From Nannochloropsis salina CCMP1776 (taxonomy: Eukaryota; Sar; Eustigmatophyceae; Eustigmatales; Monodopsidaceae): a stretch of 64,000 nucleotides of DNA. The stretch lies in contig SDOX01000049.1 of NCBI GenBank assembly GCA_004565275.1, positions 43,944 to 107,943 of the forward strand, written 5' to 3'. Below are positions 1 through 56,712 of the stretch, in pieces (position 1 is the first letter of the stretch; every line of letters starts with the position of its first letter). The notes beneath the pieces are model-generated. The model saw only the letters and a list, made by a program, of their open reading frames with translations, was not told where the DNA came from and made no database searches. The position numbers were made by a program, and so were the translations under genes.

Positions 1-3000
1 GGGGGCGGTTGACAGGCGGCTTCCAGGGCCGAGACGCTGAACGGGACAAAAGAGAGGGAGGACGCGGCGGAGGTCAAGGGGGGCGAGGAAGGGGGGGTAC
101 CCGCGCTGTGGAGATGGGCGTGGGCGAGGGCAGCCAGGGATTGGTGCGGCCCATGCGCACCTTCCCCCGGGGTCGGGGCGACAAAGACGAGGTTTGTCTG
201 GCTTCGGTGGAGGTAGGTCTCTTTCATCACGCCGGGCGGCGCCGACAGTGGTGTTTGTCGTGCCGCGGAGGGCAGGGACCAAGGGGCCTCGAGTGCAGGC
301 AAGGCGGGCAGGGTGGAGGGAGGGAAGGAGGGAGGGAGGACGAGGGCCTTGACGAGGGAGTCGAAGGTGAGGAGGAAGGACGGCGGGAGGGAGGCCGCGG
401 TGAGGCCGCGACGGATGGAGAGGAGGAGGGGCGGGGTGCGGAGGCGAAGGAGGGCCAGCACGTGGAGGAGGCAGCTCGCCCCCAGCCTCTGCCGTTCTCT
501 TCCAGCCTGTCGGCTGTCCCACCCGTCACTCTCCGCAGCCAAACTGCCCCTCCCACTGCCCTCGGAGCCCCCGTCCCTGGAGGGAGAGCAGGCAAGCAGG
601 GACAAGAGCGCATTCACGATGGAGGGGACGTGCTGATGAAGGATCTGATCGACCTCCCACCCTCCCCCCTTGCCCCCGCGGTGCTTCCCTTGTCCACTCT
701 GTGCCCCTCCTCCCATGCCTGCAAAGTGAGTGAGCAAGAGGGCAGCCAAACGCTGCATGGCGGGGTCGCCTTCCCTCCCTCCCTCCCTCCCTCCCTCCCT
801 CCCTCCCTCCCGAACCAAGGCCAGCACCTGCGGCAAAACGATTGAGAGCCCGTAGCTTCCAAGATCATCGGCCCCCCAGGTCCCCAGGCACCTTAGGACT
901 TCCCGCGCGCGCCAGCTGACGTCTGCCTCCCCGTCGTCCCGCCACTCCTCCGCCTCGTCCACACCCTCCCCCTCGTCCTCCTTCCCTCCCCCCTTCTCTT
1001 CCTGCTTCCCGCCTTCCCCCAGGTCAGTGCAAGAGCGACTCCGACTCCGCGACCGCTGCCGGCTCAGGGCCGCACCAGTACTCGGGGGGGCATCCCAGTC
1101 TCCGTCCCCTCCCTCCCTCCCTCCCTCCCTCCTGTCCTCCCTCCGCCCCTGCCGCAAGGTCCCCACCAGCCAGGGCACAACCTCCATCACGACCAACCGG
1201 TGCACTTCACTGGCCTCCCCGCCCTCCCGCGCGCCCTCCCACTCGACCAGAAGGGAGACCAAGCGGAGACAGGCACGAAAGTCCCGCCGGCGGGGGCTGG
1301 AACGGTAATGCCGGTTCAAAAATGGCAGCCAAAAGGAGAGCAAGGGATACAAGCGCTGCCCGCGAGACATGGGGGGGCTCCCCCGGGAACCGCCCATCCA
1401 TTCCAAGAGGAGGCCCAAATTTTCCAAAATCCAGGTCCGAAGACGTGGGGAGATATCGCCCCGATCCGCCGTCTTCCCCAGGGTAGAGAGCAAGAGTTTG
1501 GTCATGAGGGGGCGGGAGGGAGGGGGGGAGGGGCGGAGTCGGTCGTCGCGGCCCATGACAAGGGGGGCAGGCGGGGCAAAGAGCCCTTGGGACACCGTCA
1601 TGAGAGTGTAGAGGATGGATGGGTAGTGAGGGGAGGAGCCCGGGTCGCGCAACAGGCGAAAAAGTGCGCGAATCGCCATTTCGGGGTACAGTTCCTCCGC
1701 GGGAAGGAAGACGGCGCGCTCCCCCTCCTCCCCTTCCTCCTCCCCTTCCTCCTCTTCTTCCTCCTCCAGCCACACCACGCGGGGCCCTTCCCCCGTTCGT
1801 TTCTCAGCTCCGCCCTGCCCGTACGTGATTCCAGCCGACCACGCTGATGGGCGCTGCCCCCCCTTCGCCGCCACCTTAAGTTCACCACCGGCAGTGGCAG
1901 CCATTAGAGCGGGTGCAGCGGGCGTCGGCGCCGAGGGTGGTGCGACGACGGCGTTGTAATAATCCGGCGCCAGTGCCCCCAAAGTGCCAAGCACACGGAG
2001 CACTTCTTCTCGGACTACCACCATCTCTTCCTCCCCCCCACCCTTCTGTCCACCTTGCGGCTGTGCCTGCTGCTGCTGCTGGAGGATGCTGGTGAGGGCG
2101 GGAAGGAGGGCGGGGTACAGGAGGTAGACGTTGTCGACCACTCCCGTGGATCCACAGAGCTGTGCCAAAGCCCGTAAGGTCAAGCTCCTCGGTCCCAGCA
2201 CCCCCAATTCCGGGAAAGGGAGGGAAGCACGGTGCTCTTTCTCGGCCCCGCTGTCGGTGGGAGGGCTGCCCGCCGGAAGCACCGCTGGGTTCCTCTCCCC
2301 TTCGGGACTGCGGCTGGAGGCCGGGCGGTGTCGGGGGGAGATCATCCTTGCCTGGAGCAAGAGTGGAACGAGGCGGGGAAGGAGGGCGTGCGCGTAGGGG
2401 CGGAGGTCGGAGGGGGACAAACAGGCAAGCTCCCCGACCACGGCCAGGGCCACGAGCAAGCCTTCCCCTGTCAACGGTCGCCCTTTTCCCGCCAATTTTG
2501 GGGCGCCAGGCCCCGTGTGATTCCCGGCGTTCTCCTCCGAGAGGATGCTTCCTGTGCCCTTCCTCGGGAACGCCCTCCCTCCCTGTCCCCCCTCTATCAG
2601 CACCACCAAGGGGACCGCGATCTGCGGAATGTAAGGTTTCAAACCCTCGTGGACTTCGGTAGGCAGGGCTCGCACGAGGGCATACAAGAGCCACAGGCTT
2701 TCCTCCGCCTTGCCCTCCCCCCCCTCCCTTCCCCCCATCCTCCACCAGGTGGCCCCAGCCCTGCGCAGTCCAAAGGGAGTTTAGGAGGGTGGACCAGACA
2801 CCTCGGAGGGCGGGAAGGAGGGCAGGGAAGTCGAGGGGGAGGAGCCGACTTAAGGTGGCGAGGGCTTGCGACCGGAGGTGGAGGGGTTCGGGGGCCAGGG
2901 TGAGGAGGAGGAGGAGGGAGAGGGAGGGGGGGCGCGACAGGCCCAAGGCGAGGGCGGAGGTAGTAGAGAACGGCGCGAGGAGACGAGAGAGGACGGAGGC

Positions 3001-6000
3001 GCGGACCCACGCGTCTGGTTCTGTTAAGGTGGCTTCAAGGAGCTGTTTAGACAGGGAGGTAGGGAGGGAAGGAGGGAGGGAAGGAGGGAGGGCGTGCAGA
3101 AAGCTCACCACGGCGCGCCCAGCCTGTTGGCGGAGGAAGGGCTTGTCTTCCAAAAGGAGGTGTCGAGCCACCAGCCCTTCCAGCACCTCGGCAGCCTCCT
3201 GCCCCACCCCTTCCTCCCTCCCTGCCTCCCCCCCCTTCCTGCCCCCCGCCAACACCCCAGTCCAAGTTCCCCAATGCCTTGAGAGCAAGAAGCACAGTGG
3301 TCAAGTCCATCCGCCCGCCTCCCTTCCGCCGGATCCGCTCCCCTTCCCTCGTGTCCCACCCGCCTTCGTCCCTCCCTTTCCCCCCTCCGCGTTCTCCCGA
3401 CCCAGCGAGCCGCGTCGACAGGGAGGCGACCATGGCCTTGGCCCCGGAGAGGGAGGGGGAGAGGGCGGACTTGCTCGACGGGCTCGACAGTGCGGGAGGC
3501 GCTTGGCGAGGGAGGGCGGAGAGGAGGGACAAGGACCGTTTCACTGAAGGTGTCGCGCGCGCTGAGGGCACAGGGGAGCGTCTTGGAGTGCCCGGGTGGG
3601 AGGGAGGGGCCGAGGGAGGGGTGGGGTCGGTAGGGAGGGGTAGGGCCAGAGGGGGGGGAAGGAGGCTTTGGAAGCTGAGGCGTCGGAGGCCCGGTGACGA
3701 GGAAGGGAGGGAGGGAGGGAGGGAGGGAGGGGTCGAGGTCGAGGTTGAGGGACGGGTGGGCTTGGTGGTTCTCTCTGTGGGTGTTCCAGAGGCCAAAGAT
3801 CGACGAAGCGGATGCCACGCTCGATCAGCGTCCCCCCTCCTTCCCTCCCTCTCTCCTTCCCTCCCTCCCTCCCTGCCGTAGGACTCGCCACGCACACGGG
3901 GAGGGCAGCCCCCGTCGTGCTCGGATTGACTGAGTGTGGAGCGTCGACGAGGAGGGAGGGAGGGAAATGCCGGCACAGGGGGAGGGCAGGGGGGCAGGGA
4001 AGGGGCGGCAGGGGAGGAGGACGTGAGGGAGGAGGAGAGCAGCGGAGAAGCCGCATCTCGTCTCCCACCCAAGAAGGTAGAAAGGGACCAAGAGAGGCCT
4101 GTGACGGAGGCCTCGCTCCCTGCCCGGCTCGGTGAGAGGGAGGAGGAAATGGAGGAAGAGTAGAGGCGGCGGATGGCGACATGCACACGGAGGCCCAGCC
4201 TTCCTCGCAGGCGCCCGCCCTCCGTCCCGCCCTCCTTCCCGCCCTCCCCCCCGTCCTCACCCCCGCCCACATCTTCTTCCCGGCCCATATTTTGCCGCTT
4301 CCGCTCCGAATACAGCTGATGCTCTTGCTGGCGTTGGCATCGACGCAGGCGCCGTGCGAGGGCGGGAGGGAGGGGGGGCAGCAGTCGGTCGGGCCGTTGT
4401 TGTCGCAGGTATTGGGCAAGGACGTAGTAAATTTCCAGCAGAAGGAGCTCTCGGAGGTGCCGGCGGAGGGATGGGGAGAGGAGGGGTAACAGGGCTTGAA
4501 CGGTCTGTAGGAGCAGAGGGGAGAGGACTGTCGACGATGGGGAGGGAGGGGGGGAGGGAGGGAAGGAGGAAGGGGTGCCAGGAAAGTCACCCCACCCTGC
4601 CTCCCTCCCTGCCCCCGGCCGTCCCTTTCCCCTCCCTTTCTTCTTCTGTGCCCTCTTGTTTTTGCTGACGTTGCCGCCGTTCATGTCCTGCTCGGTGAGT
4701 GCCTCCACATGACCGAGGGGGAGCATAAAGAGGGCTGGCAAGAGAGCAGCCCACGCCTCCTCACCCTCATGGCGCGCCTCCTCCCTGTCCGGGAATCCGG
4801 CGAGGAGGAGGCGAAGGAGGCAGCAAAGAAGGGCCGGTCGAATGGCGGGGGTGGCCGTGAGAAGCCCCTTCGAAATCGCCGTCGTCAAGGTCATGAAATC
4901 AAAGACAGCTGGTGCTTCCTCCCCCCCCTCCTCCTCTTCCCCCTCCTCCTCCTCGCCTTCTTCCCCCTCCTGCGGCCGCGGGGAGGAGGAAAGGGTTGCC
5001 TTCCCTTGGACCCCGCCTCCATTCTCCCATTCCCCCCCTTCCAAGAGAGTATCTGCCTCACATTTTACCCCTCTTGCCCCGGAATTTCCGACGGGAGAGC
5101 AAGACCGCCGCCAGGGTGAAGGCGGTGGGGAGGACGCGAGGGAGGGCACGCCCGCGCCCATGCTCGTACTGCTCTTGCCTTGGGTGAGGCACGAAGAGGG
5201 AGAGAACGACGAGGAGGGAGACAAATCGCCGCTACGACATTGTTCGCTGCCACGGACCTTGGCTGAAAGTCTGGGGCGCTTTTTCCCTCCCTCCCTCCCT
5301 CCCTCTTTCCCTCCCTCCTTCCTTCCTTCCTTCCCGCTTTCTACGAACAATGCAGGGCCCAAGACCAAGGCCAATTCCCCCAGGCTCTCCACCATCGCCG
5401 CCCGCACCTCCCTCCCTCCCTCTCTCCCTCCCTCCTTCCCTTCCTCTGCGAGGGCAGAGAGGAAGAGGGGTGCCAGGCGCGCCGAGTGACGTTGCCAGAA
5501 CGCGGCGGGGGGTGAGGCGGCGGCCGTGAGGGAGGGTAGGAGGGCCCAGGCCGCGGAGGAAAGAAGAGGGGGAGGAAGGGAGGGAGGAAGGGCAGAGAGA
5601 AGATCGACGATCCGTAGGGAGAGGCTGTGATAATCGTCCAAGGAGGGGAAATGAGACAGGCACCTGGCTGTCCTCCCCTGCCCCTCCCAAGTGGCCCCTC
5701 CCTCCCCTCCTTCCTCCCCCGCCACCGAAAACCCTCCCTCCCCGCGGCTATCGCCCTCCTTGTTCCATGCTAGCGAGGCTGTGGGGGAGGCGGACGTGCC
5801 CGTCCTCAGGAAATTTCGGAGCACGAGCATCGCGGCTCGAGCTTCGGCATGGGCCGGGGGGGGAGGGAGGGAGGAGGAAAGGGTGCGCGTCCGGAGGGAG
5901 AAGCCTGGAATGCGCCGCTCCGGCGTCGGGTAGGAGGGGCTGTGGAAGAGGGAAGGGAAGGCGGAAGGCTGGAAGGAGGGAGAGAGGAGGACGCGCACTG

Positions 6001-7681
6001 CCTGTTGGCAGAAACGCCCGACCAGGGCCTCTCTGCCTCCTACCCATCCGGCGGCGTCTCCCCCGCGCCCCCCCCCTCCCCCTCCTTCTTCCTCTCTTCC
6101 ACGGCGCCCCTTAGAGGCCACGAAAACACTGAGGGCCTCTCTGGCCGCTGCCTGCACCCAGGGGTCGTCGTCGTACAACCAACCTCCTCCTCCCTCCCTT
6201 CCTTCCCCTCCCCCCCGCCCTTCTCCTCGCTCTCCCTCCGAGGTCCTTCCTCTTCCACTGGTCTCCTCACCCGCGGAGGTCGGTGATGGTCCCTTCGTAT
6301 CGAATAGCCGCCAGAGCAGCTCCTCCTCCCCGCCCTCCTCCCCTTCCTCCTCCCCTTTCTCTGCGCGGCTTGGGATCTCCCCTTCCTTACCCCCCAGGAC
6401 CCTCCCCTCCGACAACAAGCAGGACGTCGACTGAAGGAGAGACGGGGCCTTTTCCACCAACGTGGAAAGAAGACGCAAGGCTGCACATACCTTAACTCGG
6501 CGCTCTTCCGGATCCCAGCCCGGTTTCAATCCGTGGCTGGTCGAGGTCGAGGAACGACGCCGGCTCCGAGAGCCCGTCAAGGTGGAGGACAGCGAGGAGG
6601 AGCGGACGGACGAGAAGCGCATGGCTGCCATGGATGGAGGGGCTGTCGCCGGAGCAAGCGCGGTGACGGCGAGGGCGCTGGAATGTTCCCTAACACAGGG
6701 CGACCGGCCCTCCCTCAGCCAACCGAGGCACAATGCCCCAAGGAAACGGGACTTGAGGATCTCCCACACCTCCTGACGGCCAGTATTCGCTCTTTTTTCC
6801 TTGGCTGCTTGCTCCAGAATGCGGCCCAGGCATTCCAAATGAACCGAAAAGGCACATGCCATGACTTCGAGAGGCGCCGCCCCCTCCCCCAACTTCCTCC
6901 CTCTCCCCTCCTGGTCCTCCACCTCCTCAGCGTCCCCTTCTCCCCATTTACCTTCCACAAATTTTAGTAAAAAGGACTCGATCTCTTCCAGCATCAAAAT
7001 AGCTGCGGACAGGCATGGCAAGGGGGGCTGCTTTCGCTCTGTTCTCTCGTCCTGCTCCTGTCCCTGCGCTTGACCCGAAAAAGACGACGGCCTACCCCCC
7101 GTGGAGCCGCGTTCTGTCACGGTGGGTGGCAGGGAAAGCTGCAGGTGTACGGCTAGCATGTTTACTCCTCCTCTTGAGCCATCGCTGCAGTGCCCGCCCT
7201 CTAAGGCCTGAGCAGATGCCAGCACTTCCAGCACCCGCAAGCGTGCTACCCCGCTGCGGAGCGCCAGCGTCCCGCGTAACCACCCTTCCCACAAGTACTG
7301 CTGCTCTAAAAGCTGTTGTTGAGGGTGATCATGGTCATGCTCCTGTTGGTGCTGACGTTGAAGAGCACGAACGTGCGCTTGGAGCTGGGCTTGTGCGTCG
7401 ATGGCCCGATCATGGGCTGCGTCGGCAGGTTGGACGCAGGCGAGGGCAGGAATCAGGTAGGTAGGAGGAAAGACAGGGGAACACATGATGGAGACGATCA
7501 ATTTGTCAAGCTTTCCATATGCATTGTTTGGACGCGCGATCTGTGGTATGAAAAGGGTTTTGAGGGAGACAAGGAGGGAACAGAGATAATGCGAGGCGAG
7601 CTTTTTTACGTTTGGCACGGCACCCTCAAATTGAACGTTGATGGGAAAAGGCCCATTCCTACAACGACAAAACGATATCAC
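1..7681 (-). CDS. TOR: Target of rapamycin (TOR) kinase, N-terminal HEAT-repeat half; gene continues past the left edge
   Basis: TOR is the PI3K-like kinase that couples nutrients to growth. Only the N-terminal alpha-solenoid is here; FAT, FRB and kinase regions would lie left of base 1. Recognition rests on several TOR-specific segments in the correct order: LLALKALGNLDW near 3270-3310 (metazoan 'LALRTLGSFEF'), LYPALLPAL and RVLGTLGALAPDYYN near 1950-2090 (human 'RVLGLLGALDPYKH'), and YPEMAIRALFRLLRDP near 1640-1690 (human 'ALMRIFRDQSL' region). The reading frame changes twice, at about 3227-3236 and 2727-2736. Both sites are runs of eight G (coding strand), and each offset fits one extra base. 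Long (CCCT)n tracts encode low-complexity inserts between helices, so the protein is much longer here than usual TOR. The first ATG of the open frame is at 7681, but the true start or a 5' intron near 7450 is uncertain. No second-strand gene competes convincingly. Confidence 0.82.
771..813. repeat. (CCCT)n / (GGGA)n tracts inside TOR
   Basis: A near-perfect CCCT tetranucleotide run lies here. Further runs are near 1107-1132, 3061-3090 (as GGGA), 3699-3731, 3837-3872, 5284-5332 and 5408-5440. In the TOR coding frame they give REGGREGG- or PPSLPPSL-type linkers. They sit between conserved helices, so they look like tolerated expansions in loops. The G-rich strand could form quadruplexes. Confidence 0.8.
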
Positions 7682-8588
7682 AGCGTGATTAAGGATCTAC
7701 ATGATGCAATACACCCACAGACTTTAACATGTCACTTATGCAGAGACGGGCTGGTAGCACACCTGTATGGGCCACGGGCTCGTTGGCGATCAAGGAGGCT
7801 GCGGTCGCTCTGTCAAGCTCCCGCCTTTGACAACACCGAGTTTTTCACATGTCAAGATTTTCGCAATCTCAACAGCTTCAAAGATACAAAGCTTGTAAAC
7901 GAGGGGAGTTTAAAAAAATAACTAAGAAAATGTTTCTGAGAACAAAACGTCACGAATGCAATTAGGAAGGCACCAACACTCAATTGAGTTTGCAAGCTTA
8001 TCATCTGAAGCGTGAGAAAATTGCTTCCTAGCATCTCTGCACACTTGCCATCGCTGCCATTGAATGCTGAAACCGATCATATGACAAAAATATGATTTAT
8101 GGAATAAATCTTAGGATTTGGGGGAGCTAGCGAAGAAGAGAGATGTGAAACTTCGTGATGCGCGTTCTTTTCAACGTTAAGCCGTCGGGCGATGAGGAGG
8201 AAAAGAGGCTTGTATTGAAAGCGCCTGAACGATTGTTGTGCACCAGAAACGCCAAGTAAGCATTCCTAAACTCTGCGTAGACAAGACTCTGAATAAAATT
8301 GAGCTGAACGCACGAAAAGGTGATAGTTACACGCGAAAATTTACAGCACTTGAGATCAAGTGAGGGCGTTGACTTTTCTTATCTCCTCTACGCTGTACCT
8401 CCCCGCCGTTACCGGAAAACTCACCCGAACTCTGTAGCAATGTCTTTTCACATTTGTTTCACGGAAGGAAATCAAACAGCAAATTAAGCTTCAAAAGACT
8501 TGAAAAGACCTCTTGCAGGAAAGGAAAGCGGTTCAAACCGTGTATTGGATCCTGGAAAAGACATGATTTAGAAAAATAACTGCCAAGA
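7682..8588. other. Intergenic, divergent 5' regions of TOR and the arrestin gene
   Basis: About 0.9 kb, more AT-rich than TOR. No ORF here shows conservation. It should hold both promoters, but no specific motif could be assigned. Confidence 0.5.
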
Positions 8589-44612: not shown

Positions 44613-46094
44613 CTACCCAACAAGGCGCTCCGCACAGTTTTCGAGCTGCTGTACCTCCGCTGCAAGCCATTCTACAGTTTGTGATGGCGAGTTTGCTTGT
44701 AACGGCAGACGTAGAGGTCCCTGACCCTCTACAGATGGCTCTTCATGAAACCGTGACGGGAACAAGAAATTCATAAATCTTTCCGAGCGTTGCACTTCTC
44801 GTAAGACTTTCAGGATCGCCAAAAGGTCAAGCCTCGCGTCTGTTCCGACAGTGTCTTTCTGTCTCCGCCGCAAGTCCCGTGCTTTCCACAGGAGCAAGTC
44901 CACCCACTCTGTCAAATTGATCGAGCTATTCGCCCGCATAACAACCTCGCATTGCCGCTCCCATCCACACAGGCTCGCATCGAACGTCTCGCGCAGGTCA
45001 TACAACCGCTCCTGCACAGCATTTGCCTCTTCTTTAACGAATGTCCAAACCCTGTCCAGGCAGCTACGGTTGAACCAATTATGATTGATGGAGAGGCATC
45101 CTGTCACATTGCGCACCCGATGAAACCACCCAGAAGGGACAAAGATCATCTCTCCCGGGCCCTGACGCACTCTTACAGCCGCGCCCGACCAGTCCACCAA
45201 CCCAAATGGTACCGTGGATTGCAGTGGCAGATTTTCGACAAGATTGCCCTTCTGATCAGGATGGATGAGCGTCCAATCCTTGGTGCCTGCAAGGTTGGCT
45301 GACCAGGAGTAGGAGCATAACACGTCGTGATGGAGGCCTGTTTGCGTACCAGCTGGTCCGAGATACAAGAAACGGTAGTCGTCTTCCCGAGCTGGATGCC
45401 CAGCTTCGCTTGCCGGGGCGTCCCACCAGGCGTTTAGCCAATCATCGGTTAGGGGGAAAGGTACGGCGAACAGGGCAGACGGTCCAGTGGGCCTTGCGGG
45501 TGGGACCTCTGCGCGGCACGCACCGACTAGTTCTTCGTGTCCTTTCTCATGAACGCCCTGTTTTCCAGGAGCCAGGACATCGCAAAGCTCGTCTCCGTCT
45601 TTGACACCTGCCTTAACCTCCTCTCGCATGTCCTGCTTGTCATGCTTCCCATCAAGGCCCTTCAACGCCTTGACGATGTGCCAGTCTTTGAGATACAAGC
45701 CCCGAGCTTCAGCCTCTCCAGTTCGCCACAGTCTTGCATACTCAGTAAAGTGCATCTCTGTTCGTAGCTCTGTCCCGTAAGAATTGCTCTGGTCTTGGCA
45801 CGAGTTACTCGTGTGTGACTGATGCCCTTCCACGTTTTCATGTTTATCATCGTCTCCGGGACACTCTACAACTGGAACCAGTGTCTCCTCCGCAACTTCA
45901 CCGCGATTATGTCCACAAATGAAGTTCTCAAACAAATCAAGAGTCTGGAAATTTTCTTCCTCGCCTGGAACCACCCAGGCGCGTGTCGCCTCCCACCGAG
46001 ATGCTAGATCGGTGATCAAAAAAGGCGCATTGCTGTCAAGGAAATGACGCAAAAGCGCGGGTGAAGCCGAAGCCGAGTCAATACGAGGGATCAT
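44613..46094 (-). CDS. JMJD4: JmjC-domain 2-oxoglutarate oxygenase, JMJD4-type (single exon, 493 aa)
   Basis: Animal JMJD4 hydroxylates a lysine of translation release factor eRF1. The order and wording match that subfamily: YLGPAGTQTGLHHDVLCSYSWS, with the Fe(II)-binding HxD (about H255, D257), GTKDWTLIHP (2-oxoglutarate Lys region), GEMIFVPSGWFHRVRN (distal His about H325), SINHNWFN, then the JMJD4-specific tail VWTFVKEEANAVQERL and CEVVMRANSSINLTEW. An acidic insert of about 125 residues (70-195) interrupts the N-terminal part relative to animal proteins. It is intronless, unlike its neighbours. ATG 46094 gives a sensible N-terminus with the usual FLDSNAPFLITD strand. The substrate assignment is by homology. 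Confidence 0.92.
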   Translation of the reverse strand: MIPRIDSASASPALLRHFLDSNAPFLITDLASRWEATRAWVVPGEEENFQTLDLFENFICGHNRGEVAEETLVPVVECPGDDDKHENVEGHQSHTSNSCQDQSNSYGTELRTEMHFTEYARLWRTGEAEARGLYLKDWHIVKALKGLDGKHDKQDMREEVKAGVKDGDELCDVLAPGKQGVHEKGHEELVGACRAEVPPARPTGPSALFAVPFPLTDDWLNAWWDAPASEAGHPAREDDYRFLYLGPAGTQTGLHHDVLCSYSWSANLAGTKDWTLIHPDQKGNLVENLPLQSTVPFGLVDWSGAAVRVRQGPGEMIFVPSGWFHRVRNVTGCLSINHNWFNRSCLDRVWTFVKEEANAVQERLYDLRETFDASLCGWERQCEVVMRANSSINLTEWVDLLLWKARDLRRRQKDTVGTDARLDLLAILKVLREVQRSERFMNFLFPSRFHEEPSVEGQGPLRLPLQANSPSQTVEWLAAEVQQLENCAERLVG

Positions 46095-47517: not shown

Positions 47518-50500
47518 CTAGGCCGATTCCTCCAACCACTGAGTGACTCCGGAGCTCACTCGATAGGAGACCACTGTCGTCGGCAACACCTTCAGAAGCA
47601 CCACGGGGTACCCCCGGTATAACCCTCTGAGCCCTCCTCCTTCCCGTACCGCCATCTTCACCTGGCCCCCCAGGCTGGAAAGACAGGTGAAAATGCCCTT
47701 CCTCTCCATTTTCGAGCCTTCCCCCCATCCAAGTTGCATCCGACGTCTCAGAAGGTCAAAGGGGTAGGCGATGGATTGAGCCACTGCTCCCGCCGCTAGC
47801 ACGCTCAAGATGGCGGACGAAGGAGGAGGAGAGGAGGGGGCAGACAGGGGGTCAGTAGGGCGCGCAAAGGGGAGGGAGGAATGTTGGTGGCGGTGGAGGG
47901 CGAGGGGGGCAAGGAAAGCCAGGCACGTGTAGTTGATCCCGATGTAGAGGAAGGCCCAGACCGCGCAAGGGGTCGCCCCCCGCCAAAAGGCTCGGGGTCC
48001 TTCTTGCTTCCAAATATGAAGCGTGGCCTGCCAGGCACCCTCGGGGTAGGGTCGGGAGGACGCTGTTTGGGCGGTGATGCGTGCGCGGAGGGTGTCGAGG
48101 GGGTGGAAGAGCAGGTTGGCGGCCACCCCCGCCAAGCCCCCCGCGAGCATGTGCTTGGTTTCCAGAGGGAGGGGTCCGGGTGGGAGGTTGGTGGAATGAG
48201 GGGGGGGGGGCATGCTGGCGCCCAGGTTCAGCGCCCAGGTGGTAGTGCGTGCGTCGGTCGGGCCGCTGCCGGTGGCGGCGGAGGGAGAGGAAGAGGGGGA
48301 GGTGGGGGAGAAAGGGAAGGCAGGCGCCAGGGGGCGCAGGGCATGATCACGTAGGTACTGGTACAGGAAGACTTGGACTGCGAGGACAGGTAGGATTCGG
48401 AGCATATTGAGACCGTTGCCGACGAACAGTCCCCGCGTATGCCGATACAGCATCCCCCCCCAGGGCGGTTGGGTGTAACGGGGGTCCAGGATGAGGCGCA
48501 GCGCCCCTCGAAAGCGTAGGGGGGGGCGAGAGGCAGGGTACGTTTGGATCAAGATCTTGGCACGCTCGAGCGGTGCGACGGCCAGGCGGGCAACGGCCCC
48601 TCCGACACCCGCAGCGAGGACCATCCTCCACACGTCCGGCGACGCGACCTGCAGGGAGGAGGAAGACGGCAAAGCCTCAGACGCCGTCTCAGAAGCAGGA
48701 CGGGAAGGGCTTCCTCCGGCGCCGGGAGGAGCGTGGCTTATCCCTTCACGGAACGCTTCCCCGCCTGGTCTAGCGCCCACGGCCAGGACCGTCCCAGCTC
48801 GCCGCAGGGACCGCTGTGCCCTGTCGCCCGTTGCAGTCACCATCTCCTCCCACCCCCGTCGTAAGCCCACCACCTCCCTATGGATTGATTCTAAAAAGCG
48901 ACGCACACGCTGCGGGCAGTCGGGCGAGGCCAGGGCCTCCACGAAGGACGAGTAGGAGGCGGTGCTCGAGGAGAGGGACAGAGACGCCTCCTGCAGGTCA
49001 TGGTCCCAAAAGCTCGCCGGGGCCTCCTTCCTCCCCCACCACGGCCTCTTCCGCCCTCGCTTGCCAAAGACCCGGGCTATGAATCGCCGCTCTTCCTCTT
49101 CCTCCAGCGCGTCCTCTGAGTCTCTACCCCGTTCCTCCCTCTCATCCTCCCGTCGTGCCGCCTCTCGCAGGGCCGCCCAGTCCCCTAAAGTCACCTGTTG
49201 GAAGCCAGCGTCCCTCTGAGAGAGCCGCATGGCCACCTGCACGTGGGGGGAAGGGCTGTGCATCCATATGTCCAGATGCACGAGTTCCGAGAAGGAAACC
49301 AGGCCCGAATCGGTCCAGTCCAGGGCTTTGAGGAGAAGCCGAGGGACTGGGACAGGAGGGGAGGAGGAGGAAGACGAGGAAGGAGGCGCAGAGGGCGGGG
49401 AGAAGAAGGCGGAAAGGAAGTCGGCGTGAGTCATGTACCTCTCTTCCTCCCGACCTTCCCCCCCCCGCTCTGACGTGACTACGACCGAGGCATGGTGGAG
49501 GAAGAAATCCAGCAAGCTTGGAGACCCCCCCTTGCCTGTCAGTTGCATGAAATCGAGGCGCCCAAGCGCCCACAGCCGACAGTCCTCCTCCGCCACGACA
49601 GAGGCCCCTCGACGGGAATTGAAAAGGGCGGCGGCTTCCCCGAAGAAAGCTCCGGGGCCGGCCGACGCCACGAGAAAAGAGGAGGGGGTTGAGGGGGTAA
49701 CGATCAAGTTGGAGATTGTTTCCGATTTGCCACGCTCGCCCCCATCCCTCCCGACGCCAGTAAGAGTTTTCTTTTCCTCGATTGGATTGAGGGGGCTAGC
49801 AAGCGCACGGGGCCTTGCTTTTTCCCGGACAATCCGCGCCTGCCCCTTGTCCAGCACGTAAAAGCATTCGCCTCTGTCTCCCTGCTTGACAATGTTCTCC
49901 CCCTTCTTCACCCGCAATTGGAAAAATCGCTCCATGGCCCTCTCTTTCTCCTTCTTTCCACGACCACCCAGGGCGGCGAAGTAGGGATGGCTGTCGAGGA
50001 CCGAGCCCAAGCGCTCCTTCTCCGAAGGTGTTCGGGGCCGCCCAGGGGGCTCTCGGCCCCGCAGCAAGGTCGATATGTCCTTGCCATGGACGCGCCAGAG
50101 GCGGACATGGTCTCCCCGGGCAATGGCCAGCAGGGAGGAAGGTGAGAGGGAGGGAGGGAGGGACGACGGAGGGCATCCCGGCCCTCCGAATGCCATGCCT
50201 GGACCGAGAGTGGCCAAAAGCCGCTTCTCACGTCGACACCTCGGCTGGGAGGGAGGGAGTCGATGGTCAGGGGGGGGTACAAGGGGGGTCGCGGAGGCCG
50301 ATGTCGAGTCTGCACAAACGGGTAAGGAGGTTGAATTCCTCTTCCCTCCTCTTCGATCTGCATTAGTTGTTGCGCATTCGGGCCTTGGCGCGCCAAATCC
50401 CCCCCCCTCCTCCTCTTCCAGCCGCTCTTCGAAGAGATCTACCTCACCCTCTGCGACCACGTAGAGGGAGGGTGGCTGTCCTCCCTCAGAGAACACGTGG

Positions 50501-51639
50501 ATCATCTCCGCGTCATCAGGGACCACCTCCTGAAAGAGACCGAGCAACTCTGCAGGCACGCAATCATCACTTCCGTTCCCATCCCCTTCTTCCACTGTTC
50601 CACTCGTGACTGCAAGCTTTTTCAAGGCCCGGGCTAGCCAGTAGGAATCGGGTCCTGCTGCCCCCTCATTCCCTGTAGCGCCGCCACTCTCTTTCCCGGG
50701 CAGCAGCAAACCTGCGTCAACGTCTTTTCCTTCCCATCTCACGGGTATTTCCTCCCCTAAACATGCCCCCTGAAGAAGATTCAGACTTTCCCTCCGGAGA
50801 GAGGCTACTCCACGGCCCAGAACACTGACGGGCTTGGCCGACGCAAAGTCGGTGGGGATGTAGGTATTGCTGGCTGGGTAGGCAGACAGGAGCCCCAGAC
50901 GCTGATAGGCCGCGGCGACTAGCTCTGAGCAGAAGAGGCCGCTGCCCATGTCCTCCTTGTTCTCGAACACGGACACCTCGGCGCCCTCCAACGCCCTCAG
51001 GGCGAGCAATCGCTGCCTTCGCGCCTCCTCCAACGCCTTGTCCAGGGCCCTTCTTTCCAAGGATGTGAAAGGCTGGCTTCCACCAAGCTCCCTCTTGAGC
51101 CCTTGCACCCGCTCCTCCCACTGACGAACTTCAAGGTAGAGCATCTCTCGACGCCACTGTGCCGGCGTCACCAGCCCTGATGCCACCATTTGAAGTATGG
51201 ATTGCTTGTATTGGTAGCCTCGCACCTCCTCAACATACGCACGCATTGCCTCGCGCAGAGCAGGAGTACGGGTGAAATGGTGCAGGCGTCGCACGGCAAT
51301 GTCATGAGATTTGCTGCGCCTTACTCTCTCCTTTAGGTCGACGTACTGCACGCCATTAAAACCTGCGTCAATGAGCATCAATCGCCCCCCCTCCGCCTCG
51401 TCCTCCCTCACCACAACCCCCAAGTGATCATAACGTCCGTAGAGTTTGGCAGCTAGGCATACTGCGGCCCCCACGGGTCCCATCGTGCCACATCGACGAT
51501 TGAAGAGGACTAGATCCCCCGTGTCCAGATGGGGAAGGAGGGCCTCGAGCGCTGAAGTTGTCGAGGCCGACGGGTCCGTCCAGCTGCCATGGCTAGAGGA
51601 CGACGGTGGACTAGTATCGGGGGGGATTGCTTGGGACAT
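47518..51639 (-). CDS. Fusion protein: papain-like domain, cyclic-nucleotide-binding modules, EF-hand and mitochondrial carrier (single ORF, 1373 aa)
   Basis: One uninterrupted frame. Residues 38-290: permuted NlpC/P60-type papain-like fold (YiiX/DUF830-like), with GDLVLFN, the His of YDHLGVVV (H72) and the Cys of LFCSELVAAAYQ (C237). Residues about 360-530: degenerate cNMP-binding-like region (SLYVVAEGEVDLFEE). Residues about 575-705: clearer cNMP-binding domain (ENIVKQGDRGECFYVLDKG, GAFFGEAALFN-like loop). Residues about 735-830: EF-hand part resembling the aralar/citrin regulatory domain, one loop DWTDSGLVSFSE (774-785). Residues 1000-1373: three solute-carrier repeats with signatures PLERAK, PLDTLRAR and PFDLLRRR. 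The C-terminus therefore should sit in the mitochondrial (or related) inner membrane, with possible Ca2+ and cyclic-nucleotide control. The role of the papain-like domain is unknown. It could be hydrolytic or membrane-lipid related. Confidence 0.85.
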   Translation of the reverse strand: MSQAIPPDTSPPSSSSHGSWTDPSASTTSALEALLPHLDTGDLVLFNRRCGTMGPVGAAVCLAAKLYGRYDHLGVVVREDEAEGGRLMLIDAGFNGVQYVDLKERVRRSKSHDIAVRRLHHFTRTPALREAMRAYVEEVRGYQYKQSILQMVASGLVTPAQWRREMLYLEVRQWEERVQGLKRELGGSQPFTSLERRALDKALEEARRQRLLALRALEGAEVSVFENKEDMGSGLFCSELVAAAYQRLGLLSAYPASNTYIPTDFASAKPVSVLGRGVASLRRESLNLLQGACLGEEIPVRWEGKDVDAGLLLPGKESGGATGNEGAAGPDSYWLARALKKLAVTSGTVEEGDGNGSDDCVPAELLGLFQEVVPDDAEMIHVFSEGGQPPSLYVVAEGEVDLFEERLEEEEGGGFGAPRPECATTNADRRGGKRNSTSLPVCADSTSASATPLVPPPDHRLPPSQPRCRREKRLLATLGPGMAFGGPGCPPSSLPPSLSPSSLLAIARGDHVRLWRVHGKDISTLLRGREPPGRPRTPSEKERLGSVLDSHPYFAALGGRGKKEKERAMERFFQLRVKKGENIVKQGDRGECFYVLDKGQARIVREKARPRALASPLNPIEEKKTLTGVGRDGGERGKSETISNLIVTPSTPSSFLVASAGPGAFFGEAAALFNSRRGASVVAEEDCRLWALGRLDFMQLTGKGGSPSLLDFFLHHASVVVTSERGGEGREEERYMTHADFLSAFFSPPSAPPSSSSSSSPPVPVPRLLLKALDWTDSGLVSFSELVHLDIWMHSPSPHVQVAMRLSQRDAGFQQVTLGDWAALREAARREDEREERGRDSEDALEEEEERRFIARVFGKRGRKRPWWGRKEAPASFWDHDLQEASLSLSSSTASYSSFVEALASPDCPQRVRRFLESIHREVVGLRRGWEEMVTATGDRAQRSLRRAGTVLAVGARPGGEAFREGISHAPPGAGGSPSRPASETASEALPSSSSLQVASPDVWRMVLAAGVGGAVARLAVAPLERAKILIQTYPASRPPLRFRGALRLILDPRYTQPPWGGMLYRHTRGLFVGNGLNMLRILPVLAVQVFLYQYLRDHALRPLAPAFPFSPTSPSSSPSAATGSGPTDARTTTWALNLGASMPPPPHSTNLPPGPLPLETKHMLAGGLAGVAANLLFHPLDTLRARITAQTASSRPYPEGAWQATLHIWKQEGPRAFWRGATPCAVWAFLYIGINYTCLAFLAPLALHRHQHSSLPFARPTDPLSAPSSPPPSSAILSVLAAGAVAQSIAYPFDLLRRRMQLGWGEGSKMERKGIFTCLSSLGGQVKMAVREGGGLRGLYRGYPVVLLKVLPTTVVSYRVSSGVTQWLEESA

Positions 51640-55161: not shown

Positions 55162-56712
55162 CTACTTCCCGCTTCGGCGTTGAAACGAAAGCTCCGTGGA
55201 CAATGGTCCTTGTTGTGCTCGCCTGAGACGTCGATCGGCTCGGGAGGCCCTATGGCATTCTCTACCTTGTCTCTCTCTCGTCACCCTCCCTAGCCTCGCA
55301 TCGGCCCTCGCACTGTCTACCGCCTGGTGCTTATCCATTGCTGCTTGTGCAAGTCGCTCAAGATGAGTGCGAACGTTTTCTACATTGCTGTTTCCCTTCT
55401 CGCACGCCTTCTGAAAAAGCGGTGCTTCCTTCGAATCTGGAAGCCCTCCTTTTCCTCCTCCCCATCCCGGGGGAGTACCCACCAGTACGATGTTCTTCTC
55501 ACTGCATGTCAAGGGCGTCAGATGCGTAAGATACACGCAATACCCGGGCACCTCTTCGCGCGCAGCCTGCTGTCGGTCCACCTCCAATAAATGCTTGGTT
55601 ATCCTATCCTCAGCGTGATAATCACTCTGATGGTCTGCCGCCGAAGCCAGAATGGCGTAAGAGGACATGAAGACATCAGACCTGGGGGCAGGGCAGTCAA
55701 TAGCGGCGCTGTCTCCCTGATTGCTATTGTCGGCGGCCAATTCGGGATATCTGCCATCCGAAGCACATATTGTCGTCGTCTTTCCATGTTTTTCTTCCAT
55801 CTGCGTACCAAAGGCATCTCCGTTTCTCCATGCGCCTGCTCCTTCTTCTTTCCTCTCTGATTGCGCCCCTGTGCAATTACGTTTCACAGCGCTTGGAAGA
55901 GAACATTCATTTCTGTCATCCAAGTCATTCACAACTCCTCCACTGGTGATCAAACCGGTCGTTGCACGCCTCAGACGCCGCCTCATCCAGACCGAACGCG
56001 GATACTGAACGTTGCCGGGTCTACTCACAATCTTTCCCAGACAGCACGGAACTAGGATATATGCGGCCTTTTGCACTAAGCACTGGATCTGTATGCGATC
56101 AGTGAGGCTTCCGCAGCAATGTAGACCCAAGCCCAGATTGAAGGGGCCGTTCCAGGCCCCAACGTCCCCGACGAAGAAGGAGACGTTCGTAAGACCTGCT
56201 TTCATGACCCGCTGCTTCGCCAAAGCGATGGCCACCGGTTTTTCGTCAAGAAGGGTAAAGTGACAGGCAGGAAGGAGTGCAGCCAGGGCTAGCGACGAGT
56301 TGCCGCTCCCGCAACCGAAATCCACGACGTGCGGCGAGGGATAGGTTGGCAAAAGGTCAGAGAGAAGTGTGTAGAGCGACTCGAGCTGCTGCCGTTTGTG
56401 ATAGCCCCGAGGTGTGCGGTGGAGCTGCCCTCCGTAGAGCGGATCCAACGACTGATCTATATTCAGCCATTCTATGCTAGCTGACAGTGATGAGTCTATC
56501 GTCGTCTTGTTGTGAGATCCAGCGTTTACTATAGACAGAGAGTCGAGGGGAGAGTCCCGGTCTTCATCACAGTCAATGTCGGAATAGAGCAGACTTTGTG
56601 TTATGGCAATGCGATGTATAGCCAGAGCCTTGCGACGCCGTACTAGCTGGCGCGCTTTATGTTCTTTATGGATCTGCTTGAGTTCTAGGCTGGCGCTCAG
56701 TTGGGAAAGCAT
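55162..56712 (-). CDS. SAM-dependent methyltransferase, Methyltransf_32/GSTCD-like (516 aa, 5' end uncertain)
   Basis: Rossmann-type methyltransferase resembling the C-terminal domain of animal GSTCD. The core (residues about 125-230) has VVDFGCGSGNSSLALA (motif I), FTLLDEKPVAI (acidic end of strand 2), and the subfamily marks NLGLGLHCCGSLTD and ILVPCCLGKI, equivalent to 'ALHACG' and 'PCCYG'. Near the C-terminus KNIVLVGTPP matches the conserved end. Between these lies a long unconserved insert (about 265-345). The ATG at 56712 is in frame, but an upstream exon is likely: an open minus frame at about 57000-56884 ends with a consensus GTGAGT donor and could join in phase at 56676. Substrate unknown in all relatives. 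Confidence 0.78.
   Translation of the reverse strand: MLSQLSASLELKQIHKEHKARQLVRRRKALAIHRIAITQSLLYSDIDCDEDRDSPLDSLSIVNAGSHNKTTIDSSLSASIEWLNIDQSLDPLYGGQLHRTPRGYHKRQQLESLYTLLSDLLPTYPSPHVVDFGCGSGNSSLALAALLPACHFTLLDEKPVAIALAKQRVMKAGLTNVSFFVGDVGAWNGPFNLGLGLHCCGSLTDRIQIQCLVQKAAYILVPCCLGKIVSRPGNVQYPRSVWMRRRLRRATTGLITSGGVVNDLDDRNECSLPSAVKRNCTGAQSERKEEGAGAWRNGDAFGTQMEEKHGKTTTICASDGRYPELAADNSNQGDSAAIDCPAPRSDVFMSSYAILASAADHQSDYHAEDRITKHLLEVDRQQAAREEVPGYCVYLTHLTPLTCSEKNIVLVGTPPGWGGGKGGLPDSKEAPLFQKACEKGNSNVENVRTHLERLAQAAMDKHQAVDSARADARLGRVTRERQGRECHRASRADRRLRRAQQGPLSTELSFQRRSGK

Follow-up and report, generated by a model that had tools for sequence, protein, structure and literature searches.

The closest described relatives of the gene reported here are mitochondrial carriers with EF-hands fused to the transport domain. 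The AGCs (aralar/AGC1 and citrin/AGC2) place an N-terminal EF-hand lobe with an EF2-type calcium loop before the carrier; according to passages of PMC4250520, EF-hand 2 is the sole Ca2+ site of the human AGCs, and calcium moves the EF1-EF2 unit and thereby opens the vestibule. The SCaMC/APC ATP-Mg/Pi carriers join a calmodulin-like regulator with four calcium sites to an ADP/ATP-like carrier, as described in passages of PMC6283063, which make no mention of a cyclic-nucleotide-binding (cNMP) or a C92 domain. Here we describe a gene in a 64,000-nucleotide stretch of the Nannochloropsis salina CCMP1776 genome (contig SDOX01000049.1, positions 43,944 to 107,943; hereafter the window). A single open reading frame (ORF) on its minus strand, at window positions 47518-51639, encodes in this order a permuted papain-like C92 domain, a degenerate cNMP domain, an intact cNMP domain, an aralar/citrin-type EF1-EF3 lobe and a three-repeat mitochondrial carrier. 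On its architecture, the gene is a new version of the calcium-regulated carriers. With the AGCs it shares an EF lobe with an EF2-type loop fused N-terminally to a carrier; unlike them, it has a carrier that is not of AGC type, room for part of EF4-EF8 only and no C-terminal helix domain, and it adds two cNMP domains and the C92 domain. With the SCaMC/APC proteins it shares the fusion of an EF-hand regulator to an ADP/ATP-like carrier, but the regulator is AGC-like and has one loop. The initial annotation of this DNA knew of no such architecture. The fusion of domains is supported, and no fusion of a carrier with a cNMP or a C92 domain was found among the paper titles and abstract beginnings listed; beyond these, coverage extended to term-searched passages of PMC8550323, PMC3142127, PMC7554720, PMC4250520, PMC12410006 and PMC6283063.

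The uninterrupted frame of 1373 codons that had been proposed is borne out: it runs from an ATG to its stop with no internal stop codon. The stop-free frame around it spans 1397 codons, whereas 300 copies of the region simulated with a first-order Markov model gave runs of at most 418, which rules out an ORF that arose by chance. G+C at third codon positions (0.69 overall and at least 0.50 in each 60-codon block) lends weak coding support, since the value at first positions is 0.66. Over the whole ORF, Pfam recognizes Mito_carr three times (E 7.8e-39) and cNMP_binding (E 9.9e-19), and gives Peptidase_C92 18.5 bits (cut-off 27). All modules very probably lie within one frame, and a single polypeptide that includes the C92 domain is likely. 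The ORF contains long loops rich in Pro, Ser and Gly, and Pro/Ser-rich stretches separate the carrier repeats. In-frame introns may lie within such loops, in which case the loops would be shorter and the protein would not be split. Among the first 40 residues four are acidic and none is Lys or Arg, so that a basic N-terminal presequence is absent; carriers are usually without one. Residues 1-990 reach no more than 1.41 in hydrophobicity on a 19-residue scale and are therefore probably soluble.

The lobe that precedes the carrier is, by its alignments, of AGC type. Among 177,635 PDB sequences, the best two matches of residues 698-856 were aralar (4p5x, E 0.054) and citrin (4p5w, E 0.28), values that are not significant alone. 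In a Smith-Waterman comparison with aralar, residues 705-850 scored 80, which none of 2000 shuffles reached (mean 25, maximum 44); the test is not fully independent because the aralar stretch was chosen from the top search match. The EF-hand loop that had been noted at residues 774-785 is recovered by a relaxed pattern, aligns with aralar EF-hand 2 and has Thr at position 3, like aralar. The earlier comparison with aralar and citrin was apt on two counts, as a second gene in the same genome (L017, below) encodes an AGC-type carrier with a cNMP domain. Calcium binding by the lobe is, if only slightly, the likelier case. A lobe of SCaMC type is unsupported: aralar and citrin stand on top of the five PDB matches listed, no SCaMC chain is among them, and a single loop, which the relaxed pattern finds and the strict one misses, does not make a calmodulin-like domain with four calcium sites. 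About 145 residues (851-995) are left for EF4-EF8, and the best match there to L017 is ten residues long, a score reached by 250 of 2000 shuffles. The ORF ends directly after the last carrier helix, so that the amphipathic-helix domain at the C-terminus of AGCs is not present. A structure predicted for the middle part from the single sequence was of no use, with a mean predicted local confidence (pLDDT) of 36.7.

The carrier itself has the ADP/ATP carrier 1okc as its best PDB match. The three carrier signatures initially reported as complete are all found after the odd helices, where each repeat fits the SLC25 motif PX[DE]XX[KR] (PLERAK, PLDTLR and PFDLLR), except that the first, PLERAKIL, lacks the final basic position of the extended motif; so does PIERVKLL in the genome's ADP/ATP-type carrier. 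From 145 Mito_carr matches in the genome (26.5 Mb, 103 contigs) we took 20 regions for comparison, two of them without a usable frame and four more outside the tree; as not all matches were taken, this set includes few intron-containing carriers. The best of the 20 was L115 (score 150), by its motifs an ADP/ATP-type carrier, followed by L118, L116 and L132, the last of which we take, again from motifs, to be a coenzyme A (CoA)-type carrier. L017 came 13th at 87, level with L123. A tree of 17 carrier sequences grouped the query with L115, L132 and L118 (support 0.977), apart from L017, while its exact sister was weakly supported (0.152). This placement and the rank of L017 rule out an AGC-type carrier. 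Because the EF lobe is of AGC type while the carrier clusters with those of ADP/ATP and CoA type, the protein is, as judged from its sequence, a chimera of the two. Elsewhere in the genome, a 1040-residue ORF (L018:3383-6505, contig C70) encodes a further unusual carrier, in which an EF-hand is weakly matched (E 0.011) at a long distance upstream of the repeats.

At least one good cNMP domain, at about residues 575-705, had been recognized initially. It is confirmed with wider bounds, and the count needs correcting, as a second, degenerate domain lies upstream (about 365-530). The four best PDB matches of the intact domain 2 are PKA/PKG chains. It retains the Glu and Arg of the phosphate-binding cassette (E668 and R677), the residues that hold the cyclic nucleotide; in domain 1 both are gone, with FGGPGC in place of FGE. 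Cyclic-nucleotide binding by domain 2 is likely. Sites of cGMP type usually have Thr after the cassette Arg, where Gly678 stands here, which weakly suggests cAMP as the likelier ligand. The PKA/PKG regulatory chains likewise have tandem cNMP domains, the second with an intact cassette; the query differs in having no visible kinase part, a degenerate domain 1 and a fused carrier. Searches of the genome gave 20 cNMP matches and two Guanylate_cyc (PF00211) cyclase-domain matches, and a 399-codon frame on contig C93 holds three cNMP matches. Given the cyclase matches and this frame, cyclic nucleotides are probably both made and read in the organism, and cyclic-nucleotide signalling is likely present. 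A phosphodiesterase search was uninformative, since it gave no matches even in its controls. Two further cNMP frames stand apart from this gene: an open frame of 2822 codons with two cNMP matches (contig C93:480390-485090), and a 1383-residue ORF that joins cNMP domains to a patatin phospholipase of the neuropathy target esterase type (L019:1340-5491, contig C55).

The link between cNMP domain and carrier is not a one-off, because L017 also joins a cNMP domain, EF-hands and a carrier in one frame. This gene (L017:2673-5216, contig C2, about 662172-664715) encodes 847 residues from its first listed start, a GTG, within an 862-codon frame. It has one cNMP domain at its start (E 6.2e-14), EF-hands (EF-hand_7, E 3.1e-16) and three carrier repeats (Mito_carr, E 9.8e-69) with the motifs PLDLVKTRMQ, PLEIVKIRLQ and PADVIKTRLQ, which are of AGC type. 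Its EF region matches citrin (4p5w) at E 1e-19, and its cNMP cassette, FGDGSMIFHRRRSATV, has Asp for Glu. Compared with the query, it has one cNMP domain rather than two, more EF-hands, AGC-type carrier motifs and no C92 domain. In a single BLASTP comparison one unbroken alignment of the two proteins, at 24% identity (E 9e-7), covered the cNMP domain and extended into the EF region, most of the score coming from the cNMP part, as the EF stretch alone is weak. Shared ancestry of the cNMP-EF link in the two genes is likely, not proven. L017 is arguably as interesting in its own right as the main gene.

The N-terminal domain had been described as papain-like from a His...Cys pair (H72 and C237). 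The full catalytic set of His, acidic residue, Tyr and Cys is present in the permuted order of C92 (H72, D91, Y144 and C237). H72 aligns with the catalytic His: it, D91 and Y144 align with C92 enzymes both in MAFFT and in a custom profile, while C237 is the weaker of the pair. MAFFT misplaces Cys237 because of an insert: 93 residues separate it from Tyr144, against 13 in all 28 bacterial C92 sequences examined. The profile was built from 29 bacterial loci and five sequences from E. coli K-12 and plasmids. The 29, each of at least 140 residues, represent one per 75%-identity cluster among the best 80 of 282 bacterial C92 relatives; a truncated one (L045) was excluded from the spacing count and from the model alignment. 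For the structure model, relatives were supplied for the part up to Tyr144 only, and the predicted fold matches a C92 structure in a second comparison (VIA). A C92 domain is thus supported by the custom profile, the catalytic residues and the predicted model, though it lies under the Pfam cut-off. It shares the GD motif and the permuted His, acidic residue, Tyr and Cys with the YaeF-YiiX enzymes (YiiX 2if6, BcPPNE 3kw0), and differs in having Asp for Glu, an insert of about 80 residues before the Cys, and sensors and a carrier attached. In Plasmodium PF3D7_1121500, likewise a C92 protein of a eukaryote, three of these four residues are conserved, according to passages of PMC8550323. A protein search of the genome for further C92 copies found the window itself only; a PF05708 search gave no matches and was insensitive, since it missed the window's own domain too. 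YiiX had no matches in viral contigs, and scans with short exact peptides of the whole protein and of L017, which reach close relatives only, found none there. Three plasmid matches to the N-terminal part (E 3 to 4) were discarded. Whether the domain is a working enzyme we regard as evenly balanced.

Tentatively, and with a confidence just short of even, we read the gene as encoding a regulated carrier in which an aralar-type lobe on an ADP/ATP- or CoA-like carrier has been extended N-terminally by a tandem cNMP unit and a C92 domain. The carrier would sit in the inner membrane with its N-terminal part in the intermembrane space, the side faced by the regulatory domains of AGC and SCaMC carriers and reached by small cytosolic solutes. 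Because the outer membrane passes such solutes, the N-terminal part could read cytosolic messengers. Binding of cAMP to domain 2 and of Ca2+ to the EF2-like loop would shift the position of the lobe at the mouth of the carrier, in a movement like that of the AGC EF1-EF2 unit, and so open or close the carrier. The C92 domain, a relative of YiiX, in which a fatty acid is bound beside the Cys-His-acid-Tyr site, would act close to the membrane by hydrolysing or transferring an acyl or amide group. The initial annotation had likewise suggested a transporter that responds to two second messengers and is linked to an enzymatic activity. The residues expected for cNMP, calcium and C92 chemistry are indeed there; the gating would be a step beyond them, on a carrier that is atypical in two features, and joint gating by the two messengers, though plausible, seems to us less likely than not.

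Several observations weigh against a working, enzyme-linked carrier, some of them in the carrier itself. On the even helices, where the charged network of SLC25 carriers follows [FY][DE]XX[KR], the query has YQYLR, LAFLA and SSGVT against KDTFK, YDTAK and YDEIK in L115. One of six charges is kept and five of the six on the cytoplasmic side are absent, so that the network is not in place; the motif is weak in some true carriers. At the substrate contacts, whose positions on the alignment we take from the literature, Arg1081, Trp1228-Ala1229 and Lys1350 face Arg, Gly-Ile and Arg in L115 and Arg, Gly-Ile and Lys in L132, Trp-Ala thus replacing the Gly-Ile of both. With these two changes transport is not assured, and it may be modified or abolished: on the side of the odd helices the protein has the look of a functional carrier, which is lacking on the opposite side. 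Divergent members of the carrier family can act as receptors or scaffolds, and a real fusion with a transport-dead carrier, which would anchor the C92 and regulatory domains in the membrane of the mitochondrion or of another organelle, is the most durable alternative, if an unlikely one. The lost charges, the altered contact, the long Pro/Ser-rich stretches between repeats and a branch (1.99) longer than those of the other three members of its clade (1.06 to 1.27) would all suit such an anchor. It fits less well with the retention of the three odd-helix motifs and of EGPRAFWRG in repeat 2, or with the strong Mito_carr match over three stretches, and on balance we lean towards a carrier that transports.

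The C92 domain is another point of weakness. In its own segment Peptidase_C92 scores 23.8 bits, below the Pfam gathering cut-off of 27; C237 is aligned to the catalytic Cys by the custom profile alone, in a part worth 4.5 bits; no C92 structure is among the best 50 of 129 Foldseek matches of the model; and the fold match is partly circular, because the model was built on C92 relatives. The cNMP, EF and carrier parts might form one protein while the C92 domain belongs to a separate transcript or isoform, through an alternative start or splicing, with no fusion of enzyme and transporter. Its junction with the cNMP domain is the only one with no echo in L017, which starts at a cNMP domain, and a donor-like GTGAG lies just past the C92 domain (nucleotide 898 of the ORF). 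Yet no stop codon intervenes between the C92 and cNMP domains in the 1397-codon frame, far longer than any Markov copy gave, and we hold this alternative to be improbable.

As for the EF lobe, Pfam finds no EF-hand in the ORF, whole or by segment, its sole loop fits no strict pattern, and the query-L017 score over the EF stretch was reached by 46 of 2000 shuffles; but a vestigial lobe, a mere linker in a carrier controlled by cyclic nucleotide alone, is improbable, for although one loop in about three hands, unrecognized by Pfam, and the lack of such a loop at the aligned EF2 place of L017 (its Pfam EF-hands lie further on) would suit it, the loop retained is the calcium-binding one of AGCs, with the Thr of aralar.

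Table 1. Features of the cNMP-EF-carrier gene in window coordinates
Feature	Window positions	Strand	Basis or remark
Whole ORF, 1373 residues and stop	47518..51639	-	no in-frame stop
Permuted papain-like C92 (YiiX-like) domain, residues 36-290; G41-D42, H72, D91, Y144, C237	50770..51534	-	
Insert (predicted helical) separating Tyr144 from Cys237, residues 148-230	50950..51198	-	
cNMP-binding domain 1, degenerate, residues 365-530	50050..50547	-	cNMP_binding E 0.01 in segment; alignment with domain 2
cNMP-binding domain 2, residues 540-705, loop insert of about 50 residues (606-655)	49525..50022	-	E 1.3e-17 in segment
Phosphate-binding cassette FGEAAALFNSRRGASV, residues 666-681 (E668, R677)	49597..49644	-	alignment
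Aralar/citrin-type EF1-EF3 lobe, residues 706-830	49150..49524	-	PDB matches and Smith-Waterman
EF-hand loop DWTDSGLVSFSE, residues 774-785	49285..49320	-	relaxed pattern; aligned with AGC EF-hand 2 DQTKDGLISYQE
Three-repeat mitochondrial carrier domain, residues 1000-1370	47530..48642	-	Mito_carr E 1.9e-41, three stretches
Repeat 1 motif PLERAK, residues 1023-1028	48556..48573	-	
Repeat 2 motif PLDTLRAR, residues 1180-1187	48079..48102	-	
Repeat 3 motif PFDLLRRR, residues 1293-1300	47740..47763	-	

The surroundings of the gene include two ordinary ORFs, for a JmjC/cupin-like protein (window 44613-46094) and a methyltransferase (55162-56712). Window positions 1-8000 have a G+C of 0.58-0.68, while that of the remaining 2-kb blocks is 0.43-0.64, and a 1544-residue ORF on the minus strand there (3047-7681) has no Pfam match at E 0.01.

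The chimera indicates that a sensor of AGC type can be coupled to a different type of carrier, much like the calmodulin-like sensor of the SCaMCs. Calcium acting through fused EF-hands is the known direct regulator of mitochondrial carriers, and a fused cNMP domain would bring direct control by cyclic nucleotides to metabolite exchange, for which such control is usually argued through kinases and matrix cyclases. The presence of two such genes in one compact genome makes this testable. It also seems to us less likely than not that this lineage wired cyclic-nucleotide signalling into carriers at least twice, so that cAMP and Ca2+ jointly gate exchange without a kinase, here together with a thiol enzyme acting on acyl or amide groups. 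If true, signal, transport and lipid chemistry would be combined in one molecule.

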